Origin: an uncultured Eubacteriales bacterium
GTDB taxonomy: Bacteria; Bacillota; Clostridia; Peptostreptococcales; Anaerovoracaceae
Direction of reading: 5' to 3'
Assembly: GCA_902773665.1 (NCBI GenBank)
Contig: CACYFF010000001.1
Coordinates: 62,001 to 126,000 of the forward strand
Length of the DNA: 64,000 nt
Part shown: positions 55,641 to 63,756 of the stretch, one piece after another
Position numbering within the stretch: position 1 is the stretch's first letter
How the letters are laid out: each line of letters begins with the position of its first letter
Position numbers and translations under genes: made by a program
The notes under the pieces: generated by a model
What the model was told of the DNA's origin: nothing
Seen by the model: the letters and a program-made list of their open reading frames with translations, nothing else
Database searches by the model: none

Positions 55641-55683
55641 CAAACGCAAGTAATATATTAACCGTGCGGCTTGCGTTTGTCAA
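55641..55683 (-). promoter_or_regulatory. tRNA-Lys promoter spanned by a 10-bp inverted repeat
   Basis: TTGACA (55678-55683), 17 bp, TAATAT (55655-55660) on the minus strand is a strong promoter. CAAACGCAAG (55641-55650) and CTTGCGTTTG (55670-55679) are perfect inverted repeats that flank the -10 and reach into the -35 and the expected transcription start. Confidence 0.75.
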
Positions 55684-55715
55684 GAAAGAATTTAAGCAAT
55701 TTTAAAAATTTTAGA

Positions 55716-56318
55716 CTAGAACCCCAGGTCTTCGCCCACCAGCACCACTTCCACGTCCATGCCGTTCATCTTCTGCATGTAGATGGCCAGTACGTTGCAG
55801 ATGCGGCGAGGCGCGTGGCAGTCGTAGCACTTGCCCGTCTTCGCGCAGGGCGTCGCGTAGCCGAACTTCTTCGTGTTCGTCGGCGCCGCCACATTGCGGG
55901 CCCGGAAGATGGCTTCTTCCAGCGTAGGTTCGATCTTCTTGGTGCTGGCCACCATGTAGACTTTTTCGTGGCCGAAGATGGACCCAGCCACCCGGTTTCC
56001 GGTGCCGTCGATGTTCACCAGGGCGCCGGTCTCGGAGATGGCGTTGACGGAAGTAAGGAAGATGTCCGTCAGCTGCGTCTTCCTTGCGATCTCCATAAAC
56101 TCGCCGTCGTCGTGGATGCCGATGGGATCGTAGACCGTATTGTGCTTTGCCAGCATGGCGGAGATGCCCATCACCCGCAGGGTCTCGGAGTCGCCGAAGC
56201 CTACGGTCTTGCCGTCGATCCGGCTGTCCAGATAGGCCGCAGCTTCCGCTCCGGTCTCGAAATAGCTGACTTCGAATTCATTCTTCTTCAGATTTGCGAT
56301 CGTTTTTTCCAGATCCAT
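55716..56318 (-). CDS. LutC/YkgG-type lactate utilisation (LUD domain) protein
   Basis: This 200-residue LUD-domain protein matches Clostridial lactate-utilisation proteins. The core has KTVGFGDSETLRVMGISAML, DIFLTSVNAISETGALVNID and NRVAGSIFGHEKVYMVAST. The C-terminal Cys-rich segment CAKTGKCYDCHAPRRICN is usual for this subgroup and may bind metal or Fe-S. No lutA or lutB partner is nearby, so lactate oxidation is not shown; stand-alone copies are common in anaerobes. GGGAGG precedes the ATG. Confidence 0.85.
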   Translation of the reverse strand: MDLEKTIANLKKNEFEVSYFETGAEAAAYLDSRIDGKTVGFGDSETLRVMGISAMLAKHNTVYDPIGIHDDGEFMEIARKTQLTDIFLTSVNAISETGALVNIDGTGNRVAGSIFGHEKVYMVASTKKIEPTLEEAIFRARNVAAPTNTKKFGYATPCAKTGKCYDCHAPRRICNVLAIYMQKMNGMDVEVVLVGEDLGF

Positions 56319-56338
56319 CGGTTCCTCCCGGGGTCACA

Positions 56339-56509
56339 CTACCCTCTTCTGTTTACGAGCACGCCCGCCAGGGCGCAGACGATCCCCAGGACGATGCAGA
56401 ACCAGCCTACCGCGCCGAAATCGTGGCGGAAGGGATTTTTGAACCACAGCACGGAAGCGATCTCCCACACTACGGCGCAAACGAAAAGGATCTTTGCAGT
56501 CTTTCTCAT
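56339..56509 (-). CDS. small two-helix membrane protein (56 residues)
   Basis: A short gene with an AGGAGG site about 5 nt before the ATG at 56509 and a stop at 56339. It encodes two membrane helices, KILFVCAVVWEIASVLWF and GWFCIVLGIVCALAGVLV, joined by a short loop KNPFRHDFG. It fills the gap between the transporter and LutC-type genes, 10 bases after the transporter stop, and so is probably cotranscribed with it. I do not recognise the family. Confidence 0.75.
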   Translation of the reverse strand: MRKTAKILFVCAVVWEIASVLWFKNPFRHDFGAVGWFCIVLGIVCALAGVLVNRRG

Positions 56510-56519
56510 AACGGCCTCC

Positions 56520-58118
56520 TTATTTCTGCCGCCGTATGACCTTGCGGTCCAGAACGCCCAGCGCGTCCGAGCTGTTGACCAGCTCCATCTGCAGCATGGC
56601 GCAGTCCACAGCGCGTCCGATAAAGGTAAAGATGATATCCAGAACGATGGCGACGCCCAGTCCGCCGGCGGGGATGTTCAGGCGGCCCAGCATAATGGCG
56701 TAGCAGGCGAGGCCGCTGCCGGGGATGGGCGGCAGCGCGATGGCCATCATGGTGCAGATGATGGTCGCGACGATCATCCAGGTAAGATCGACCTCCACGT
56801 GATACACTTCCGTCAGATAATAAGCGGTGGCGATGAAGGAACAGATCGTGGCCGGCATGAACATCGTCTGTCCGATGGGAAGGGCGAATTCCGTCAGCCG
56901 GGACGGAACGCCGAATTTCCGGGTCACGATGCTCTCCGTTTCGCCGTAGGAGGCGCCGGCAGAAGCCGTCAGGAACGAGGTCATCATGGCCGGTTTGAGC
57001 GTCTTCAGCAGCCATTTCTTTTCCACACCGTATTTGGTCGCCGTGTGGTTGAGCATCAGGACCAGCATCAGGAACATCCCCATCACGTAGACGAGGACGG
57101 GCTTCCAGATCCCGTAGAGCTGGGAGATCTGACCGTTCCAGATGTAACTGATGATGGTGAGCGAGATGAACACCGGCGAATACCGGCCGATGCTCTCCAT
57201 CAGGTAGTTGACCAGAGAGTTGCCCTGGGTGACGACACGGCGCAGCGTGCCCGCCGATTCGCCCATCGCCAGAAGGCCGATGCCCAGCGCAAAGCCCATG
57301 AAGATCAGCTGGATGGAGTCGTTGTTTGAAAAAGGCGAGACCGGGTTCGCCGGGAGTATGCTGGCGACCAGTTTCAGAAATTCCGAAAGACTTTCACCCG
57401 GCTGGATGCTGCCGCTGGTCCGGATCGTAAAGAACGGATAGAAGATCGCCTCGGCCAGGACAGCGGCCAGGAAGGAGAAGGCGATGAACCGGTTCATCAC
57501 CCGCTTGCCGTAGCGGCTGTACGTAACGATATCCCCCAGGTTCGATACAGCACTTCCGAGGAACAGGAACAGCGACAGACTGGCAAAGGTGCCGAAGACG
57601 CCGAGGAACGCGTTGAAAAACAGCGTAAGCACATTCTCGTCGATGTAGTCGCCTGCCGCGTCCGGAAGCTGGAAGAACAGGATGCCGAAAAGGATGCCGG
57701 CGAACACGCTGATGGGGATCGTCAGGGTGGCAAAACGCCGTTCCTCATGGATCCGCAGCGTAACGCGGTTCTTGCTGCCCCGCCGGCTCCAGACGGGCGC
57801 AAATCCCATGTCCACCATCAGGCGGCGGCTGAACTCGTCTTCGCCGGTGTCGAGCGTCGTCGGGTTAAACCGGTCCCCTTCGTACTCGATGGTGATATAG
57901 TCCCGGCGCATCCGGGAATCCATATATACCGTGCACGATATCTTGCCGCCGAAGTGCTCGCAGATGCGCAGCAGCGTATCCTCCATCGCGAGACGGATGC
58001 GGATGCGGTTGCGGTTTTCCAGCGAAAGCGTCTGCAGGAACTCCCAGATGTCCTCCGAGATCCTGTCCACGCCGCGGCGGTCCAGCAGATATACAGTTTC
58101 CACGAGTCTTCTCTTCAT
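56520..58118 (-). CDS. dicarboxylate/amino-acid:cation symporter fused to an N-terminal degenerate GHKL (anti-sigma-like) domain
   Basis: The 532-residue protein has a cytoplasmic N-terminal domain (about 1-128) and an SDF/GltP-type transporter (about 130-530). The transporter part shows SDF features: the hairpin segment LTASAGASYGETESIVTRKF, ALPIGQTMFMPATICSFIAT, and VDLTWMIVATIICTMMAIAL. The N-terminal part aligns by eye with the RsbW-type ATPase in this window: LAMEDTLLRICEHFG against LAVEELFVNIASYAY, and YEGDRFNPTT against RDSGIPYDPT. The ATP-site Asn (Arg51 here), Asp (Tyr79) and glycine loop are replaced, so it is probably a non-catalytic pseudo-ATPase. The ATG lies 6 nt after TATACT with no ribosome site (leaderless). 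It is divergent from a STAS/kinase/phosphatase operon. Confidence 0.82.
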   Translation of the reverse strand: MKRRLVETVYLLDRRGVDRISEDIWEFLQTLSLENRNRIRIRLAMEDTLLRICEHFGGKISCTVYMDSRMRRDYITIEYEGDRFNPTTLDTGEDEFSRRLMVDMGFAPVWSRRGSKNRVTLRIHEERRFATLTIPISVFAGILFGILFFQLPDAAGDYIDENVLTLFFNAFLGVFGTFASLSLFLFLGSAVSNLGDIVTYSRYGKRVMNRFIAFSFLAAVLAEAIFYPFFTIRTSGSIQPGESLSEFLKLVASILPANPVSPFSNNDSIQLIFMGFALGIGLLAMGESAGTLRRVVTQGNSLVNYLMESIGRYSPVFISLTIISYIWNGQISQLYGIWKPVLVYVMGMFLMLVLMLNHTATKYGVEKKWLLKTLKPAMMTSFLTASAGASYGETESIVTRKFGVPSRLTEFALPIGQTMFMPATICSFIATAYYLTEVYHVEVDLTWMIVATIICTMMAIALPPIPGSGLACYAIMLGRLNIPAGGLGVAIVLDIIFTFIGRAVDCAMLQMELVNSSDALGVLDRKVIRRQK

Positions 58119-58201: not shown

Positions 58202-58235
58202 AAATTGATTATGTAGTATGCATAAGGAGGTCCCT

Positions 58236-58532
58236 ATGACGATCACAAAAACCATCGAATCCGATGCTCTTACTCTCGCCCTCTCCGGCAGACTGGACAC
58301 CACCACTTCCCCCGAACTGGAGGATGAGATCAACGCTTCTCTGGCAGGCATCCACAAGCTTACGCTGGACTTTACGGAACTGAGCTACATCTCTTCCGCA
58401 GGCCTCCGCGTGCTGCTGGCTGCCCAGAAGAAGATGAACGTCCAGGGAGAGATGCGTGTCGTCGGTGTCAACGACACGATCATGGAGATCTTTGAGGTCA
58501 CCGGATTCTCCGAGATCCTGACGATCGAATAA
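58236..58532 (+). CDS. STAS-domain anti-sigma factor antagonist (RsbV/SpoIIAA-like)
   Basis: This single STAS domain has the open frame 58218-58532; I favour the ATG at 58236 (MTITKTIESDALTLALSGRL), 6-7 nt after AAGGAGG. The strand-helix pattern SGRLDTTTSPELEDEINASL, LDFTELSYISSAGLRVLLAA and MEIFEVTGFSEIL is typical, and the serine pair in YISSAGLRV is the usual site phosphorylated by RsbW-type kinases. It is followed by a STAS-kinase fusion and a phosphatase-kinase fusion, which together make up a partner-switching set. Confidence 0.88.
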   Translation: MTITKTIESDALTLALSGRLDTTTSPELEDEINASLAGIHKLTLDFTELSYISSAGLRVLLAAQKKMNVQGEMRVVGVNDTIMEIFEVTGFSEILTIE

Positions 58533-58545
58533 TGCGGGCGGACTT

Positions 58546-59724
58546 ATGAAAGAAGTCAGCTTTATCCCAAATCAAACCATTCCTACGCTCCGGCTGTCCG
58601 GGCGCATCGATTCGACGAACGCCGCAGCCGCAGAGCAGGAGATCCAAACGCTGCTGCAGGACGTGCCCGGCACGCAGGTGCAGGTCGACGCGGAGGACCT
58701 GGAGTACCTTTCTTCCGCAGGTCTGCGCGTGCTGCTGCGTCTGCGCAAGAGCCGCACCGGTCTTACGGTGGTCAACGTCTCTCCGGAAGTCTACGACGTG
58801 CTGGAGATGACGGGCTTTACGGAGATCATCCCCGTATCGAAGGCGTTCCGCCGCATCTCAGTGGAAGGCTGCGATGTCATCGGCGAAGGCGCCAACGGCA
58901 CCGTCTACCGGCTTGACCCCGACACCATCGTAAAAGTCTACCTCGACCCGGACGCCCTGGACGATATCCGCAAAGAGCGCGAACTGGCCCGCACGGCCTT
59001 TATCCTCGGCGTTCCCACCGCGATCCCCTACGACGTGGTAAAGGTGGGAGACCTGTACGGCTCCGTCTTCGAGCTGCTCAACGCGAAGTCCTTCGCGGAG
59101 CTTCTGATGGAAGACCGGGAGAACGCGGACAAGTATATCCGGCAGCTGGCGGATCTGCTCAAGCTCATCCACAGTACCGAAGTCAAGCCCGGTTCCATGC
59201 CCGACATGAAGCAGACGGTCCTCGGCTGGGTGGATTTTCTGGAGGAACAGTTGCCCGAGGCCCAGTGGAAGAAACTGCGCAGCCTCGCAGCGGCGGTGCC
59301 CGAGCGGCACACCATGCTGCACGGCGATTATCACGCCAAAAACGTGATGATGCAGAACGGCGAGGTCATCCTCATCGACATGGACACGCTCTGCATGGGT
59401 CACCCCGTGTTCGAGATGGCGTCGGTCTTTAACGCCTACACCGGCTTCTACGTGACCGGCACCCGCAAACGCGGCTCCTTTATCGGCCTCGACCCGGAGA
59501 TGGCGGAACGGACCTGGAACGGCATCCTGCTGCGCTATGCAGATGACGATCCGCAGCTCGCGGCAAAGATCGAGCAGCGGGCGGCCCTCATCGGCTACGT
59601 GCGTCTTTACCGCCGCATCCTGCGCAGAAACGGTCTGAACACGCCGGAAGGACGGCAGGAGATCGAACTCTACCGGAAGAATATCGGCGAACTGTTGGAG
59701 CAGGTGGACGATCTCACCTGGTAA
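58546..59724 (+). CDS. STAS domain fused to an aminoglycoside-phosphotransferase-like kinase (TIGR02172 type)
   Basis: The 392-residue protein begins with a second STAS domain (about 1-98, with VDAEDLEYLSSAGLRVLLRL carrying the usual serine pair). A kinase of the choline/aminoglycoside phosphotransferase class follows (about 105-392). The glycine loop is CDVIGEGANGTVYRL, the ATP lysine is in TIVKVYL, the catalytic loop is HGDYHAKNVMMQNG, and the metal Asp is in VILIDMDTL. The kinase half resembles TIGR02172. It starts 13 bases after the STAS gene. The kinase could phosphorylate a small molecule or a protein in response to the STAS switch; its substrate is unknown. Confidence 0.87.
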   Translation: MKEVSFIPNQTIPTLRLSGRIDSTNAAAAEQEIQTLLQDVPGTQVQVDAEDLEYLSSAGLRVLLRLRKSRTGLTVVNVSPEVYDVLEMTGFTEIIPVSKAFRRISVEGCDVIGEGANGTVYRLDPDTIVKVYLDPDALDDIRKERELARTAFILGVPTAIPYDVVKVGDLYGSVFELLNAKSFAELLMEDRENADKYIRQLADLLKLIHSTEVKPGSMPDMKQTVLGWVDFLEEQLPEAQWKKLRSLAAAVPERHTMLHGDYHAKNVMMQNGEVILIDMDTLCMGHPVFEMASVFNAYTGFYVTGTRKRGSFIGLDPEMAERTWNGILLRYADDDPQLAAKIEQRAALIGYVRLYRRILRRNGLNTPEGRQEIELYRKNIGELLEQVDDLTW

Positions 59725-59733
59725 GGAGGATCC

Positions 59734-61878
59734 ATGCCCGCGAAAAGCGTCCGGGAGATGACCCGCATCGAGCGTCTCCGCCATTCTCTTGGTGCGAGGA
59801 CGTTCCAGGCGGTCCTCATCCTGAGCATACTCATCGGCGTGCTGGTGGAAGCCTTTGGCATCACGCTGTACGCCCACACGGCAAAAAACGAATATACGCA
59901 GGCAGCAGAACACTTAGCAGACACAGCCGGCTCCGTCATGCAGTATGAGGAGCAGGCTGTTTATGAGTATGCCCGGAAAATCGTCCAGCGGTATACCGAT
60001 GCCGGAAGCGATCTTCAGGCAGATCCCGAGAGCGCGGCCTACCGCCTGCAGTTTCAGGAGTTTCTGGACGACGAGACCTGGCTGGAGGTGAACACGCTTC
60101 TGAAACGGCTGTCCGACAGTAACGAAGCCGACGCGGTCTACGTAGCGGCCCTGGACGAAGACGCCCTGCGCTTCGTCTACATCTTCGACTCGCAGGGACC
60201 GGACAGTCCGGAGCTTCCCGGCGACTGGGATCCGCTGATGAAAGCGGAACTGACCCGCTACCTCGAAGGCCTGGAGGAGCCCGTCTCCTACCTGGGTCGC
60301 ACCGCGGAGTACGGCGTGCAGAGCACCGGCGCCCGCTATCTGTTCGAAGTGAACGGCATGAAGGTCTTCGCCTTCGCCGACATCAATCTCAACCACGTGA
60401 TGAAGCGCAGCCTGCGCTTTCTGTGGCAGTTCGGCCTGCTGCTGGCAGTGCTGGTCATCGCGGGGTCGCGCCTGCTGGCGAACCGCCTTCAAAAGGAGGT
60501 CGTTGACCCCATCAACCGCCTGTCCGACGCTGCGGCGCAATATGTCGAAGACAAGCGGAAAGGCCGGCAGGAGGCGGATCACTTCGCTAAGCTGGGCATC
60601 GCTACGGGCGACGAGATCGAAAACCTCAGCCTCATCATGGCGGATATGGAATCCGATCTGACGACATACATCGAAGATCTTACCCGGGTCACCGGCGAAA
60701 AGGAGCGCATCGGCGCGGAACTGAACATCGCCCGAAAGATCCAGGAAGGTTCTCTGCCCGGCACGTTCCCGCCCTTCCCGGACCGCACGGAGTTCGACCT
60801 GTACGCCTCCATGCACGCAGCGAAGGAAGTGGGCGGCGACTTCTATGACTTCTTCCTGATCGACGACGACCATCTGGCGCTCGTCATGGCAGATGTGTCC
60901 GGCAAAGGCGTGCCGGCAGCGCTGTTCATGATGGCGTCCAAGATGCTCATCAGCAACTACGCAGCGATCGAAAAGGATTCGCCGGCGAAGATCCTCACCC
61001 GGGTCAACGAACGCATCTGCGCAGGCAATACGGCCGGCATGTTCGTAACGGTGTGGCTCGGCATCCTGGAGATCTCCACCGGCGTGCTGAAGGCTGCCAA
61101 CGCGGGTCACGAATACCCCATCCTGCGCAAGGCAGGACAGCCCTTCGCGCTGCTGAAGGACAAACACGGCTTCGTCGTGGGCGGCATGGAAGGCGTGCGG
61201 TACAAGGAATACGAGATCGCCATGGAAAAAGGCGACCAGCTGTTCCTGTACACGGACGGCGTCGCGGAGGCCAACGACAGAGACGAAAACATGTTCGGCA
61301 TCGACCGTACGCTGACCGCGCTCAACGGTGTTGAGCTCCCCTACTGCAAGAACGAGGTGGATGCCGTATCGGACGCGGTACACGCCTTTATGGGCAAAGC
61401 GGAACAGTTCGACGACATTACGATGCTCTGCTTAAACTACTACGGAAAGGAGACGCCCATGACGGAGGAAAAGAGCCTAACCATAGACGCGAAAGTCGAC
61501 AGGCTGCACGACGTGCTGGACTTTATCGACGCGTATCTGGAAGAGCAGGACTGCCCGCCGAAGGCGCAGATGCAGCTCGACCTGGCCGTGGAGGAACTGT
61601 TCGTGAACATCGCCAGCTACGCCTATCCGGACGGCGGAGGCACGGCAGAGATCCGCATCCGCGCCTTTGGAGAGCCGAAGCGGGCGGAGATCGTGCTGCG
61701 CGACAGCGGCATCCCCTACGATCCGACGAAGAACGAAGATCCGGACATCACGATGGCGGCGGAAGACCGCGACATCGGCGGCCTGGGCGTCTTTATGGTA
61801 AAGAAATATACGGACAGCGTCCAATACACATACGAAGACGGTCACAATGTGCTGACCATTACAAAAACGATCGAATGA
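59734..61878 (+). CDS. membrane PP2C/SpoIIE phosphatase with HAMP and C-terminal RsbW-type kinase domain
   Basis: The 714-residue regulator joins the two opposing activities of a partner switch. Helix 1 (FQAVLILSILIGVLVEAFGI, about 25-45), an extracytoplasmic sensor (about 46-227), helix 2 (about 228-248) and a HAMP region lead to the PP2C domain (about 330-570): KEVGGDFYDFFLIDDDHLAL, MADVSGKGVPAALFM, LFLYTDGVAEANDRDENMFG and DDITMLCLNYYG. From about residue 576 comes an RsbW/SpoIIAB-type ATPase: LAVEELFVNIASYAY (N box), RDSGIPYDPT and IGGLGVFMVKKY, all intact. The phosphatase would dephosphorylate and the kinase phosphorylate the neighbouring STAS proteins. No sigma factor gene is adjacent. 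A 4-base overlap links it to the next gene. Confidence 0.9.
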   Translation: MPAKSVREMTRIERLRHSLGARTFQAVLILSILIGVLVEAFGITLYAHTAKNEYTQAAEHLADTAGSVMQYEEQAVYEYARKIVQRYTDAGSDLQADPESAAYRLQFQEFLDDETWLEVNTLLKRLSDSNEADAVYVAALDEDALRFVYIFDSQGPDSPELPGDWDPLMKAELTRYLEGLEEPVSYLGRTAEYGVQSTGARYLFEVNGMKVFAFADINLNHVMKRSLRFLWQFGLLLAVLVIAGSRLLANRLQKEVVDPINRLSDAAAQYVEDKRKGRQEADHFAKLGIATGDEIENLSLIMADMESDLTTYIEDLTRVTGEKERIGAELNIARKIQEGSLPGTFPPFPDRTEFDLYASMHAAKEVGGDFYDFFLIDDDHLALVMADVSGKGVPAALFMMASKMLISNYAAIEKDSPAKILTRVNERICAGNTAGMFVTVWLGILEISTGVLKAANAGHEYPILRKAGQPFALLKDKHGFVVGGMEGVRYKEYEIAMEKGDQLFLYTDGVAEANDRDENMFGIDRTLTALNGVELPYCKNEVDAVSDAVHAFMGKAEQFDDITMLCLNYYGKETPMTEEKSLTIDAKVDRLHDVLDFIDAYLEEQDCPPKAQMQLDLAVEELFVNIASYAYPDGGGTAEIRIRAFGEPKRAEIVLRDSGIPYDPTKNEDPDITMAAEDRDIGGLGVFMVKKYTDSVQYTYEDGHNVLTITKTIE

Positions 61879-62828
61879 ACGAATCCCTGAATCCTGCCCG
61901 CCGTCGCATCGTCTGCTTCGGCGGCGCCAACATGGATCTGCACATCCAAAGCACTGTGCCGGTCATCCTGCACGACTCCAACCCGGGAAAGATCCACACG
62001 TCTCCCGGCGGCGTGATGCGCAACATCGCGGAAAACTGCGCGAGGCTGGGGGCAGCCCCCGTGCTGCTGTCCGCCGTCGGCAAAGATGCCTTCGGTGACC
62101 GCATCCAAAAGGACAGCGAAGCCGCCGGCATCGACATGAGCCGCGTCTATCTGCACCCCGACTGCCCCACGTCCTGCTACATGGCGTTTATGGACCGGAC
62201 CGGCGACATGCTGGTGGCGGCCAACGACATGCGCATCATGGACCTGCTGCCGGAGGACTATCTGACATCGCAGAAAGACGTGCTGCAGAGCGCGGCTGTC
62301 ATCCTGTGCGACGCCAATCCGCCGCTGGAGCGGATCCGTCAGCTCGTCGACCTGGCGGGAGACGTCCCCATCTTCGCGGATCCTGTATCCGTGGCAAAGG
62401 GCAGCAAATTCCTGGAGGTGCTGGACCGCATCTGGCTGTTTAAACCAAACCTCATCGAACTGCAGCACCTGAGCGGCCTGCCTTGCGGCACCGAAGAGGA
62501 GATCCGGACGGCGGCTGCCAGCCTGCTGGACAAGGGATTGCAGGCGATCGCCGTCTCCTTAGGCAGCAAGGGCTGCTACTACGCGGACCGGGAAGGACGC
62601 ACGTTCTTCCGGAGGCTGCGGGCGGTCACCGACATGGCCAACGCCACCGGCGCGGGAGACGCCTTTACGGCGGGGCTGACGACGGCATTCAGCCGGGGCG
62701 CTGCGCCCGAAGACATGGTGGATTATGCGCTGGCCTGCGGCGTGCTGGCCGTGCAGAGCGAAGACACCATCAACAAAAACATTTCCGATGCGCTGGTCCG
62801 GCGCACGATCGAAGAATACAGAGAATAA
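61875..62828 (+). CDS. psuK: PfkB-family carbohydrate kinase, probable pseudouridine kinase
   Basis: This ribokinase-fold enzyme of 317 residues has the N-terminal substrate motif FGGANMDLHIQSTVPVILHD and SPGGVMRNIAENCARLGA (the PfkB signature GGX2RN), ADPVSVAKGSKFLEVLDRIW, and the C-terminal signature ATGAGDAFTAGLTTAFSRG with the catalytic Asp. It precedes pseudouridine-5'-phosphate glycosidase, which makes pseudouridine kinase the most likely role (pseudouridine to its 5'-phosphate). The start overlaps the phosphatase gene stop (ATGA), so this metabolic gene is translationally coupled to the regulator. Confidence 0.88.
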   Translation: MNESLNPARRRIVCFGGANMDLHIQSTVPVILHDSNPGKIHTSPGGVMRNIAENCARLGAAPVLLSAVGKDAFGDRIQKDSEAAGIDMSRVYLHPDCPTSCYMAFMDRTGDMLVAANDMRIMDLLPEDYLTSQKDVLQSAAVILCDANPPLERIRQLVDLAGDVPIFADPVSVAKGSKFLEVLDRIWLFKPNLIELQHLSGLPCGTEEEIRTAAASLLDKGLQAIAVSLGSKGCYYADREGRTFFRRLRAVTDMANATGAGDAFTAGLTTAFSRGAAPEDMVDYALACGVLAVQSEDTINKNISDALVRRTIEEYRE

Positions 62829-62838
62829 CGGAGGAACT

Positions 62839-63756
62839 ATGAATTACAAGGATTATCTGGATATCAAACCCGAAGTCGCCCAAGCGCTGGCAGAAGGCAG
62901 ACCCGTCGTCGCCCTGGAGAGCACCATCCTGAGCCACGGCATGCCCTATCCGCAGAACCTGGAGTTTGCGGCGAAGGTCGAAGAAGTCGTCCGCAGCGAG
63001 GGCGCGGTGCCGGCTACGATGGCCCTCATCGACGGCCGCATCAAGGTCGGCCTGTCCGAGGCGGATCTGGAAGTTATGTGCAAGGCGGAAAACGTCGGTA
63101 AGGTGAGCCGCAGAGACTTCGCCGTCTATCTGACGGAGAAGAAGACCGGCGCCACCACCGTGGCCACCACCATGATGTGCGCGGCGTTCGCAGGCATCCA
63201 CGTGTTCGCGACCGGCGGCATCGGCGGCGTGCACAGACACGGCGAGGTGACGATGGATGTCTCCGCGGACCTGCAGGAACTGGGCCACACCCCGGTCTGC
63301 GTCGTCTGCGCGGGCTGCAAACAGATCCTGGACATCGGCCGCACCCTGGAATATCTGGAGACCATGGGCGTGCCCGTCATCGGCAATAAAACCGAAGACT
63401 TTCCCGCCTTCTACTGCCCCAAGAGCGGCCACAAGGTGGACTACGCGGCCAAGGATGAAGCCGATATCGCCCGCATCCTGAAGACTTCCCTGGATCTGGG
63501 CCTGCAGGGCGGCATGCTGGTAGGCAACCCCGTTCCGGCGGAATACGCCATGGACTTCGACTATATGGAAGGCATCATCGGCCAGGCGCTGGCGGAAGCC
63601 GACGAAAAGGGCGTCCACGGCAAGGAAATCACGCCCTTCCTGCTGGCCAAGGTCGTGGAGCTCACCGGCGGCGAATCCCTCGCCACCAACATCCAGCTGG
63701 CTCTCAATAACGCCCGCTGCGCATCCAAGATCGCAGCCGAGCTGGCAAGACTGTAA
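62839..63756 (+). CDS. psuG: pseudouridine-5'-phosphate glycosidase
   Basis: This 305-residue glycosidase splits pseudouridine 5'-phosphate into uracil and ribose 5-phosphate. Family motifs are RPVVALESTILSHGMPYPQN near the start (catalytic Glu), KVSRRDFAVYLTEKKTGATT (catalytic Lys region), FATGGIGGVHRHGEVTMDVS, and VGNPVPAEYAMDFDYMEGII. The ATG at 62839 has GGAGG 6 nt upstream; a frame to 62725 is a shadow of psuK. With psuK it would recycle pseudouridine from RNA turnover or the environment. A long palindromic terminator follows. Confidence 0.94.
   Translation: MNYKDYLDIKPEVAQALAEGRPVVALESTILSHGMPYPQNLEFAAKVEEVVRSEGAVPATMALIDGRIKVGLSEADLEVMCKAENVGKVSRRDFAVYLTEKKTGATTVATTMMCAAFAGIHVFATGGIGGVHRHGEVTMDVSADLQELGHTPVCVVCAGCKQILDIGRTLEYLETMGVPVIGNKTEDFPAFYCPKSGHKVDYAAKDEADIARILKTSLDLGLQGGMLVGNPVPAEYAMDFDYMEGIIGQALAEADEKGVHGKEITPFLLAKVVELTGGESLATNIQLALNNARCASKIAAELARL

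Follow-up and report, generated by a model that had tools for sequence, protein, structure and literature searches.

The gene examined here, from a gut-type Clostridia bacterium, lies on the minus strand of the window, i.e. the whole 64,000-nucleotide stretch of DNA that was analysed, and encodes a fusion of an RsbW-like pseudokinase domain with an SDF-type transporter (Table 1), for which AF2 gave a full-length model with pLDDT 87.9 and pTM 0.84. Divergent from it, on the opposite strand, lie genes for a lone STAS protein, a STAS-APH protein and a PP2C-RsbW membrane protein, as the preliminary description of the locus had stated (two STAS genes and a PP2C-RsbW gene). The RsbW-type kinase domain of the latter protein spans amino acids 585-711, with N625, D657 and the GGLG motif (682-685) all present. 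STAS protein, RsbW kinase and PP2C phosphatase, i.e. a partner-switch set, are thus encoded together at 58218-61878. Long plus-strand open reading frames across the fusion gene (e.g. 55671-57329) were taken as antisense shadow frames and set aside.

Table 1. Position of the fusion gene, its domains and motifs, and the neighbouring partner-switch genes in the window.
Feature	Position	Strand	Evidence
Fusion protein, 532 aa, ATG start: N-terminal RsbW-like pseudokinase domain and SDF-type transporter	56520..58118	-	
Residues 1-129, GHKL pseudokinase domain of anti-sigma-factor type, cytoplasmic by prediction	57732..58118	-	HHalign, fold match, dN/dS
Residues 43-57, former N-box (LAMEDTLLRICEHFG): acidic D47 retained, Asn replaced (R51)	57948..57992	-	Joint alignment
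Residues 79-87, former D-box (YEGDRFNPT): Asp replaced (Y79), Gly81 and Pro86 retained	57858..57884	-	
Residues 133-497, SDF transporter domain (GltPh-fold)	56628..57722	-	Pfam PF00375 E 4e-41, Foldseek
Residues 384-392 (TASAGASYG), altered HP1 serine motif; local unfused SDF has TASSSSTLP	56943..56969	-	
Residues 420-424 (FMPAT), where the TM7 NMDGT sodium/substrate motif is expected	56847..56861	-	
Residues 493-513, TM8 (LDIIFTFIGRAVDCAMLQMEL): canonical D...R..N...D residues not conserved	56580..56642	-	
Lone STAS protein, RsbV-like, phospho-acceptor serine motif YISSAG	58218..58532	+	Pfam STAS 2e-17, TIGR00377 1e-20
STAS fused to APH-type phosphotransferase domain	58546..59724	+	Pfam APH 7e-21, STAS_2 1e-12
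Membrane sensor combining a SpoIIE-type PP2C phosphatase with an intact kinase domain of RsbW type	59734..61878	+	Pfam SpoIIE 1e-44, HATPase_c_2 4e-22

Downstream of the PP2C-RsbW gene, and overlapping it by four bases, is a gene for a PfkB-family kinase, followed by one resembling a pseudouridine-5'-phosphate glycosidase (61875-63756). Two congeneric species share this pair, which occurs nowhere else in the set. A role of the transporter in pseudouridine breakdown, as the psuK/psuG-like genes might suggest, was not adopted, the pair being confined to the genus of the window. In relatives (e.g. L156:2165-3760), the STAS and APH domains are joined to an RsbW kinase domain as well, all within a single protein.

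In a single-sequence search, the N-terminal domain of the window protein alone (residues 1-129) gave no credible match in Pfam or among PDB sequences; the likeness of the first 128 residues to RsbW-type kinases, proposed by eye in the preliminary description, therefore needed a test at the level of the family. E-values from an iterated HMM were set aside for their circularity in favour of a decoy-controlled test, in which a profile of 15 genuine RsbW domains, without any fusion, was run against the N-domains of 81 fusions and against 1,460 reversed or shuffled sequences (reported maximum 6.5 bits). The fusions scored a median of 14 bits, with 57 at 10 bits or more and the best at 36, and the window domain, at 8.9 bits, lay above all decoys. 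When the profile of the fusion N-domains was aligned with the RsbW profile, hhalign returned a probability of 98.8% (E 9.5e-17, 118 columns), and controls with a reversed profile and a STAS profile gave no convincing match. Pfam HATPase_c_2 (PF13581) was called in 15/81 fusion N-domains (best 1.6e-6), with the window domain alone below threshold; identity to RsbW is only ~15%.

The predicted fold agrees with this assignment. An AF2 model of the window N-domain (pLDDT 88) gave VIA Z values of 13.4 to UsfX (8ih8), 12.9 to RsbW (6m37) and 12.5 to SpoIIAB, compared with at most 7.2 to ATPase domains of histidine kinases and intermediate values (9-10) to LvrC and SiaB, which are also kinases of the RsbW kind. 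A viral fold search returned nothing at E <= 0.001. Hence, profile, Pfam and predicted-fold comparisons place residues 1-128 in the anti-sigma branch of the GHKL proteins (RsbW/SpoIIAB-type), and the proposed likeness held; the check on the fold, which a fold other than GHKL would have failed, was passed. The nearest solved relatives of the domain all bind STAS proteins or sigma factors.

The pairings drawn by eye were likewise recovered in the joint alignment, namely LAMEDTLLR with LAVEELFVN (R51 opposite N625) and YEGDRFNPT with DSGIPYDPT (Y79 opposite D657). The claim that the Asn, Asp and glycine-loop residues needed for ATP are lost (Arg51, Tyr79, SRRL) also held, with the glycine loop aligning slightly off from SRRL. 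This loss is a family trait: the D-box Asp occurs in 0/81 fusion N-domains and the N-box Asn in 13/81 (Arg in the window protein), and the GGLG loop is replaced. Judged from its sequence, the window domain thus fails the criteria for an active anti-sigma serine kinase (R51 for Asn, Y79 for Asp, no GGLG). At the alignment position matching RsbW Glu49, the catalytic-Glu position, 74/81 fusions have E or D; in the window protein this is D47, an acidic residue that the preliminary description had overlooked. Further retained positions are Gly81 (77/81), Pro86 (59/81) and Asn117 (80/81), as well as a Y-x-Y pair in most fusions. In the RsbV-RsbW crystal structure, Glu49 of RsbW hydrogen-bonds the phospho-acceptor Ser56 of RsbV (PMC7340262). 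The pattern of retained and lost residues is the one expected if ATP use had been lost and a STAS-facing surface kept, although the Glu may instead be kept for structural reasons, and loss of the ATP lid takes away part of the known STAS interface, which counts against STAS docking. In close pairs, dN/dS was 0.11-0.24 for the N-domain and 0.07-0.18 for the transporter part. The N-domain is therefore under purifying selection, on which ground a decaying relic was rejected, and the SDF part is constrained as a working protein would be.

The transporter core itself is atypical, a point likewise missed in the preliminary description. Its membership of the SDF family is supported by the Pfam match to residues 133-497 (PF00375, E 4e-41) and by Foldseek matches of the transporter part to GltTk/GltPh (E 1e-12 to 1e-10; best target-normalised TM about 0.79). 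The criteria for a sodium-coupled dicarboxylate/amino-acid symporter are, however, not met (FMPAT, TASAGASYG, LDIIFTFIGRAVDCAMLQ). Many STAS-linked relatives resemble the window protein in having YMP or FMP in place of NMDGT, changed HP1 serines and no TM8 substrate and sodium residues; a different subgroup of fusions retains NMDGT. Because these motifs are lost, what the window protein carries, and with what coupling, remains undetermined, and the earlier designation as a symporter was an assumption only.

The same architecture was found in two species of the window's genus (64% identity), in three other genera of the family and in numerous further genomes across the order, class and phylum. 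Altogether, 82 fusions were collected with their surroundings, 81 of which are covered by the N-domain alignments and profile tests. A comparison of the window protein with named genomes found no relative, and a scan with the L070 subgroup matched only uncultured MAGs, without any cultured host. The family includes a subgroup of 747-764 aa (L160, L161, L162, L164, L165, L167, L187) with ~230 extra residues before the pseudokinase domain, apparently comprising several membrane helices; for this segment of L160, no Pfam family could be named. A 619-aa fusion (L146:5550-7409) carries an insertion of ~80 residues inside the pseudokinase domain, and two loci (L166:5219-8360 and L182:5701-8863) harbour a tandem pair of SDF fusions adjoining STAS and PP2C-RsbW genes.

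A STAS gene lies within 5 kb of the fusion in 23/82 cases, and any STAS, PP2C or RsbW gene in 26/82, compared with 0/20 control loci of unfused SDF genes having a STAS or other partner-switch gene nearby (Fisher p 0.003); chance alone, estimated from genome sizes and the numbers of STAS genes, would account for ~1.3 of 82. The check for homologous fusions near STAS genes was thus also passed. G036 is additionally linked by hand count, with a STAS gene past the 3' end of the fusion on a second contig. Because the linked sequences are partly close relatives, these 23 do not represent 23 independent events; the tree of fusions requires ~10 changes of linkage state, at least 7 of them on starred branches. 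Gene orders vary, including STAS-RsbW-fusion (L033), STAS/PP2C-RsbW/fusion (L070, L169), fusion-STAS-(STAS-APH-RsbW), in which stop and start codons overlap (L157, L158), STAS-(STAS-APH-RsbW)-fusion (L151, L156) and fusion-STAS-(PP2C-RsbW)-(STAS-APH) (L152, L153), besides the divergent order seen in the window. Several neighbouring genes at linked loci share four bases, as translationally coupled genes do. Fusion and STAS genes thus lie together far more often than chance would give, and do so repeatedly in distinct arrangements.

This linkage is far from universal. No STAS gene occurs within 5 kb of 59/82 fusions, including most of the NMDG-keeping subgroup, so that partners would need to act in trans there; STAS proteins are encoded in 60/60 fusion genomes searched. 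Linkage differs even among close relatives: of 19 rabbit-gut loci, 7 or 8 are accompanied by partner-switch genes. The fusion locus lacks the PP2C-RsbW gene in G001 and G002, both from the same genus as the window. At several linked loci, e.g. L031, L032 and L174, a STAS gene stands without an adjacent RsbW gene. Linked PP2C proteins bear sensor regions of their own, such as Cache-HAMP in L176 and 5TMR in L070.

No SigB/F/G-type sigma factor was found above the TIGR02980 cut-off in eight linked genomes (G000, G001, G002, G022, G707, G684, G658, G685), where the best match was a housekeeping-length sigma factor (~130-140 bits versus 234); G036, G659, G766, G315, G1160 and G147 did exceed the cut-off. 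As most genomes are drafts (that of the window, G000, has a completeness of 94%), this absence is supportive, not proof. Both STAS genes and the sole RsbW over the Pfam cut-off in G685, and the single STAS and single RsbW over this cut-off in G022, adjoin the fusion. From this gene content, the transporter may be inferred to be the most obvious candidate output of the switch in these genomes. G000, G001 and G002 encode a second STAS/RsbW/PP2C module elsewhere, which could possibly serve other targets. The one in G000 (contig C9; L209:6724-9204) adjoins a 96-aa MATE-like fragment, and a gene for a SulP-like permease follows a few kb downstream of it.

Taken together, the fusion may represent an output of a partner switch, a reading to which a probability of roughly 60% is assigned. 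In this view, the PP2C-RsbW membrane protein would set the phosphorylation state of the lone STAS protein, the proposed mobile partner, and possibly also that of the STAS-APH protein. Unphosphorylated STAS would dock on the pseudokinase domain as RsbV docks on RsbW and thereby alter transport, and phosphorylation by the genuine RsbW domain would cause it to leave. Support comes from the identity of the domain, the loss of ATP residues with an acidic position kept where the STAS serine is contacted, purifying selection, recurrent linkage and the lack of a detected SigB/F/G factor in the eight linked genomes. The overall interpretation of the preliminary description is thus supported; its proposal that docked STAS proteins tie solute uptake to the switch remains inference. 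That STAS docks physically, that phosphorylation controls this docking and whether transport is opened or closed by it are all matters of inference, without binding or transport data.

A bolder reading, for which the evidence is evenly poised, would see here a widespread design of Clostridia, in which partner switching acts directly on transporters via pseudo-anti-sigma receptors. It would span the SDF proteins (82 cases) and perhaps MATE proteins with HATPase_c_2 (G036, probably G538 and G012), in which the domain may or may not be dead. The G036 protein (L212:2024-3859, contig C78) is a transporter of the MATE family that bears HATPase_c_2 at its C-terminus (E 3e-6, passing the Pfam cut-off), and its gene shares its neighbourhood with a STAS gene and an SDF fusion; probable full-length relatives are encoded at G538:C8:161598-163361 and G012:C12:50089-51876.

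The main rival, which is possible, is a transceptor: the transporter would sense its solute and the pseudokinase domain would sequester or release STAS, making the transporter an input of the switch instead of its output. The altered NMDG, HP1 and TM8 motifs of the STAS-linked clade would suit a sensor, as would the extra N-terminal membrane segment of ~230 aa on some fusions, and there is a precedent in E. coli DctA, which belongs to the same SDF family and determines the state in which the sensor kinase DcuS is found (PMC5703999). However, without a detected SigB/F/G-type target in the eight linked genomes the onward output would be unclear, the linked PP2C proteins already possess sensor regions (Cache-HAMP, 5TMR), and the SDF part shows the constraint of a functional protein.

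Two other explanations appear unlikely. The pseudokinase domain could pair with genuine RsbW, either to bring it to the membrane or to inhibit it, without receiving STAS at all; RsbW and SpoIIAB dimerise via helix 1 and strand 1 (PMC7340262), and the fusion model retains both elements. Such a heterodimer is difficult to reconcile with the low identity to RsbW, with those loci that have STAS but no adjacent RsbW (L031, L032, L174) and with the trimeric state of SDF proteins, which is established for GltPh. Alternatively, the domain may in most members be a module unrelated to STAS that serves assembly, stability or binding of another ligand, with linkage reflecting co-regulation only. The 59 unlinked fusions, among them most of those keeping NMDG, favour this idea; linkage well over chance in varied arrangements and the binding partners of the closest solved relatives, all of them STAS proteins or sigma factors, speak against it.

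Partner switching, SDF transporters and STAS control of transporters are each known. The locus shares with RsbV/RsbW/RsbU and SpoIIAA/SpoIIAB/SpoIIE a STAS protein with a phospho-acceptor serine, an RsbW-type kinase and a PP2C phosphatase, and the fusion N-domain has the anti-sigma fold; it differs in that the linked target is a membrane transporter with a dead kinase copy and that no SigB/F/G-type sigma factor was detected in the eight linked genomes. Compared with SDF/DAACS proteins (GltPh, GltTk, DctA), the window protein shares the Pfam match and the GltPh-like predicted fold, yet adds the N-terminal pseudokinase and has changed NMDGT, HP1 serine and TM8 D/R/N/D residues. Membrane transporters under STAS control are exemplified by MlaB on the ABC transporter MlaFE (PMC7367683) and by the STAS domain of SLC26/SulP (PMC8256260), where STAS is a transporter subunit or covalent domain; here, in contrast, the receptor for STAS would sit on the transporter, with the state of STAS governed by a kinase/phosphatase pair. 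The DctA-DcuS and DctA-DauA pairs of E. coli (PMC5703999) likewise place an SDF transporter within a signalling complex, but DctA lacks a GHKL domain, and DauA contacts DctA via membrane domains, not STAS. In CapK/CapS (PMC13373217) and SypE/SypA (PMC10120452), an RsbW-type kinase acts on a STAS protein with non-sigma output: CapS is a DNA-binding repressor and SypA acts in biofilm control, neither output being a transporter. A search of the open-licence literature gave no description of an SDF-RsbW or HATPase_c_2-symporter fusion. Hence, the fusion of an anti-sigma domain to an SDF transporter, in a partner-switch-like setting whose linked target is a transporter with a dead kinase copy, appears to be new.

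Partner switches are known mainly for the control of sigma factors. If the output reading is true, transporters with dead anti-sigma domains would give orphan switches without a detected SigB/F/G factor a target, namely the membrane, and an enzyme fold would have been reused as receptor for its own former substrate. The bolder reading, if true, would mean that transport is controlled post-translationally, with no sigma factor involved. Gut Clostridia, in which RsbW, STAS and PP2C genes without an assigned output occur, offer a clear test of these ideas.
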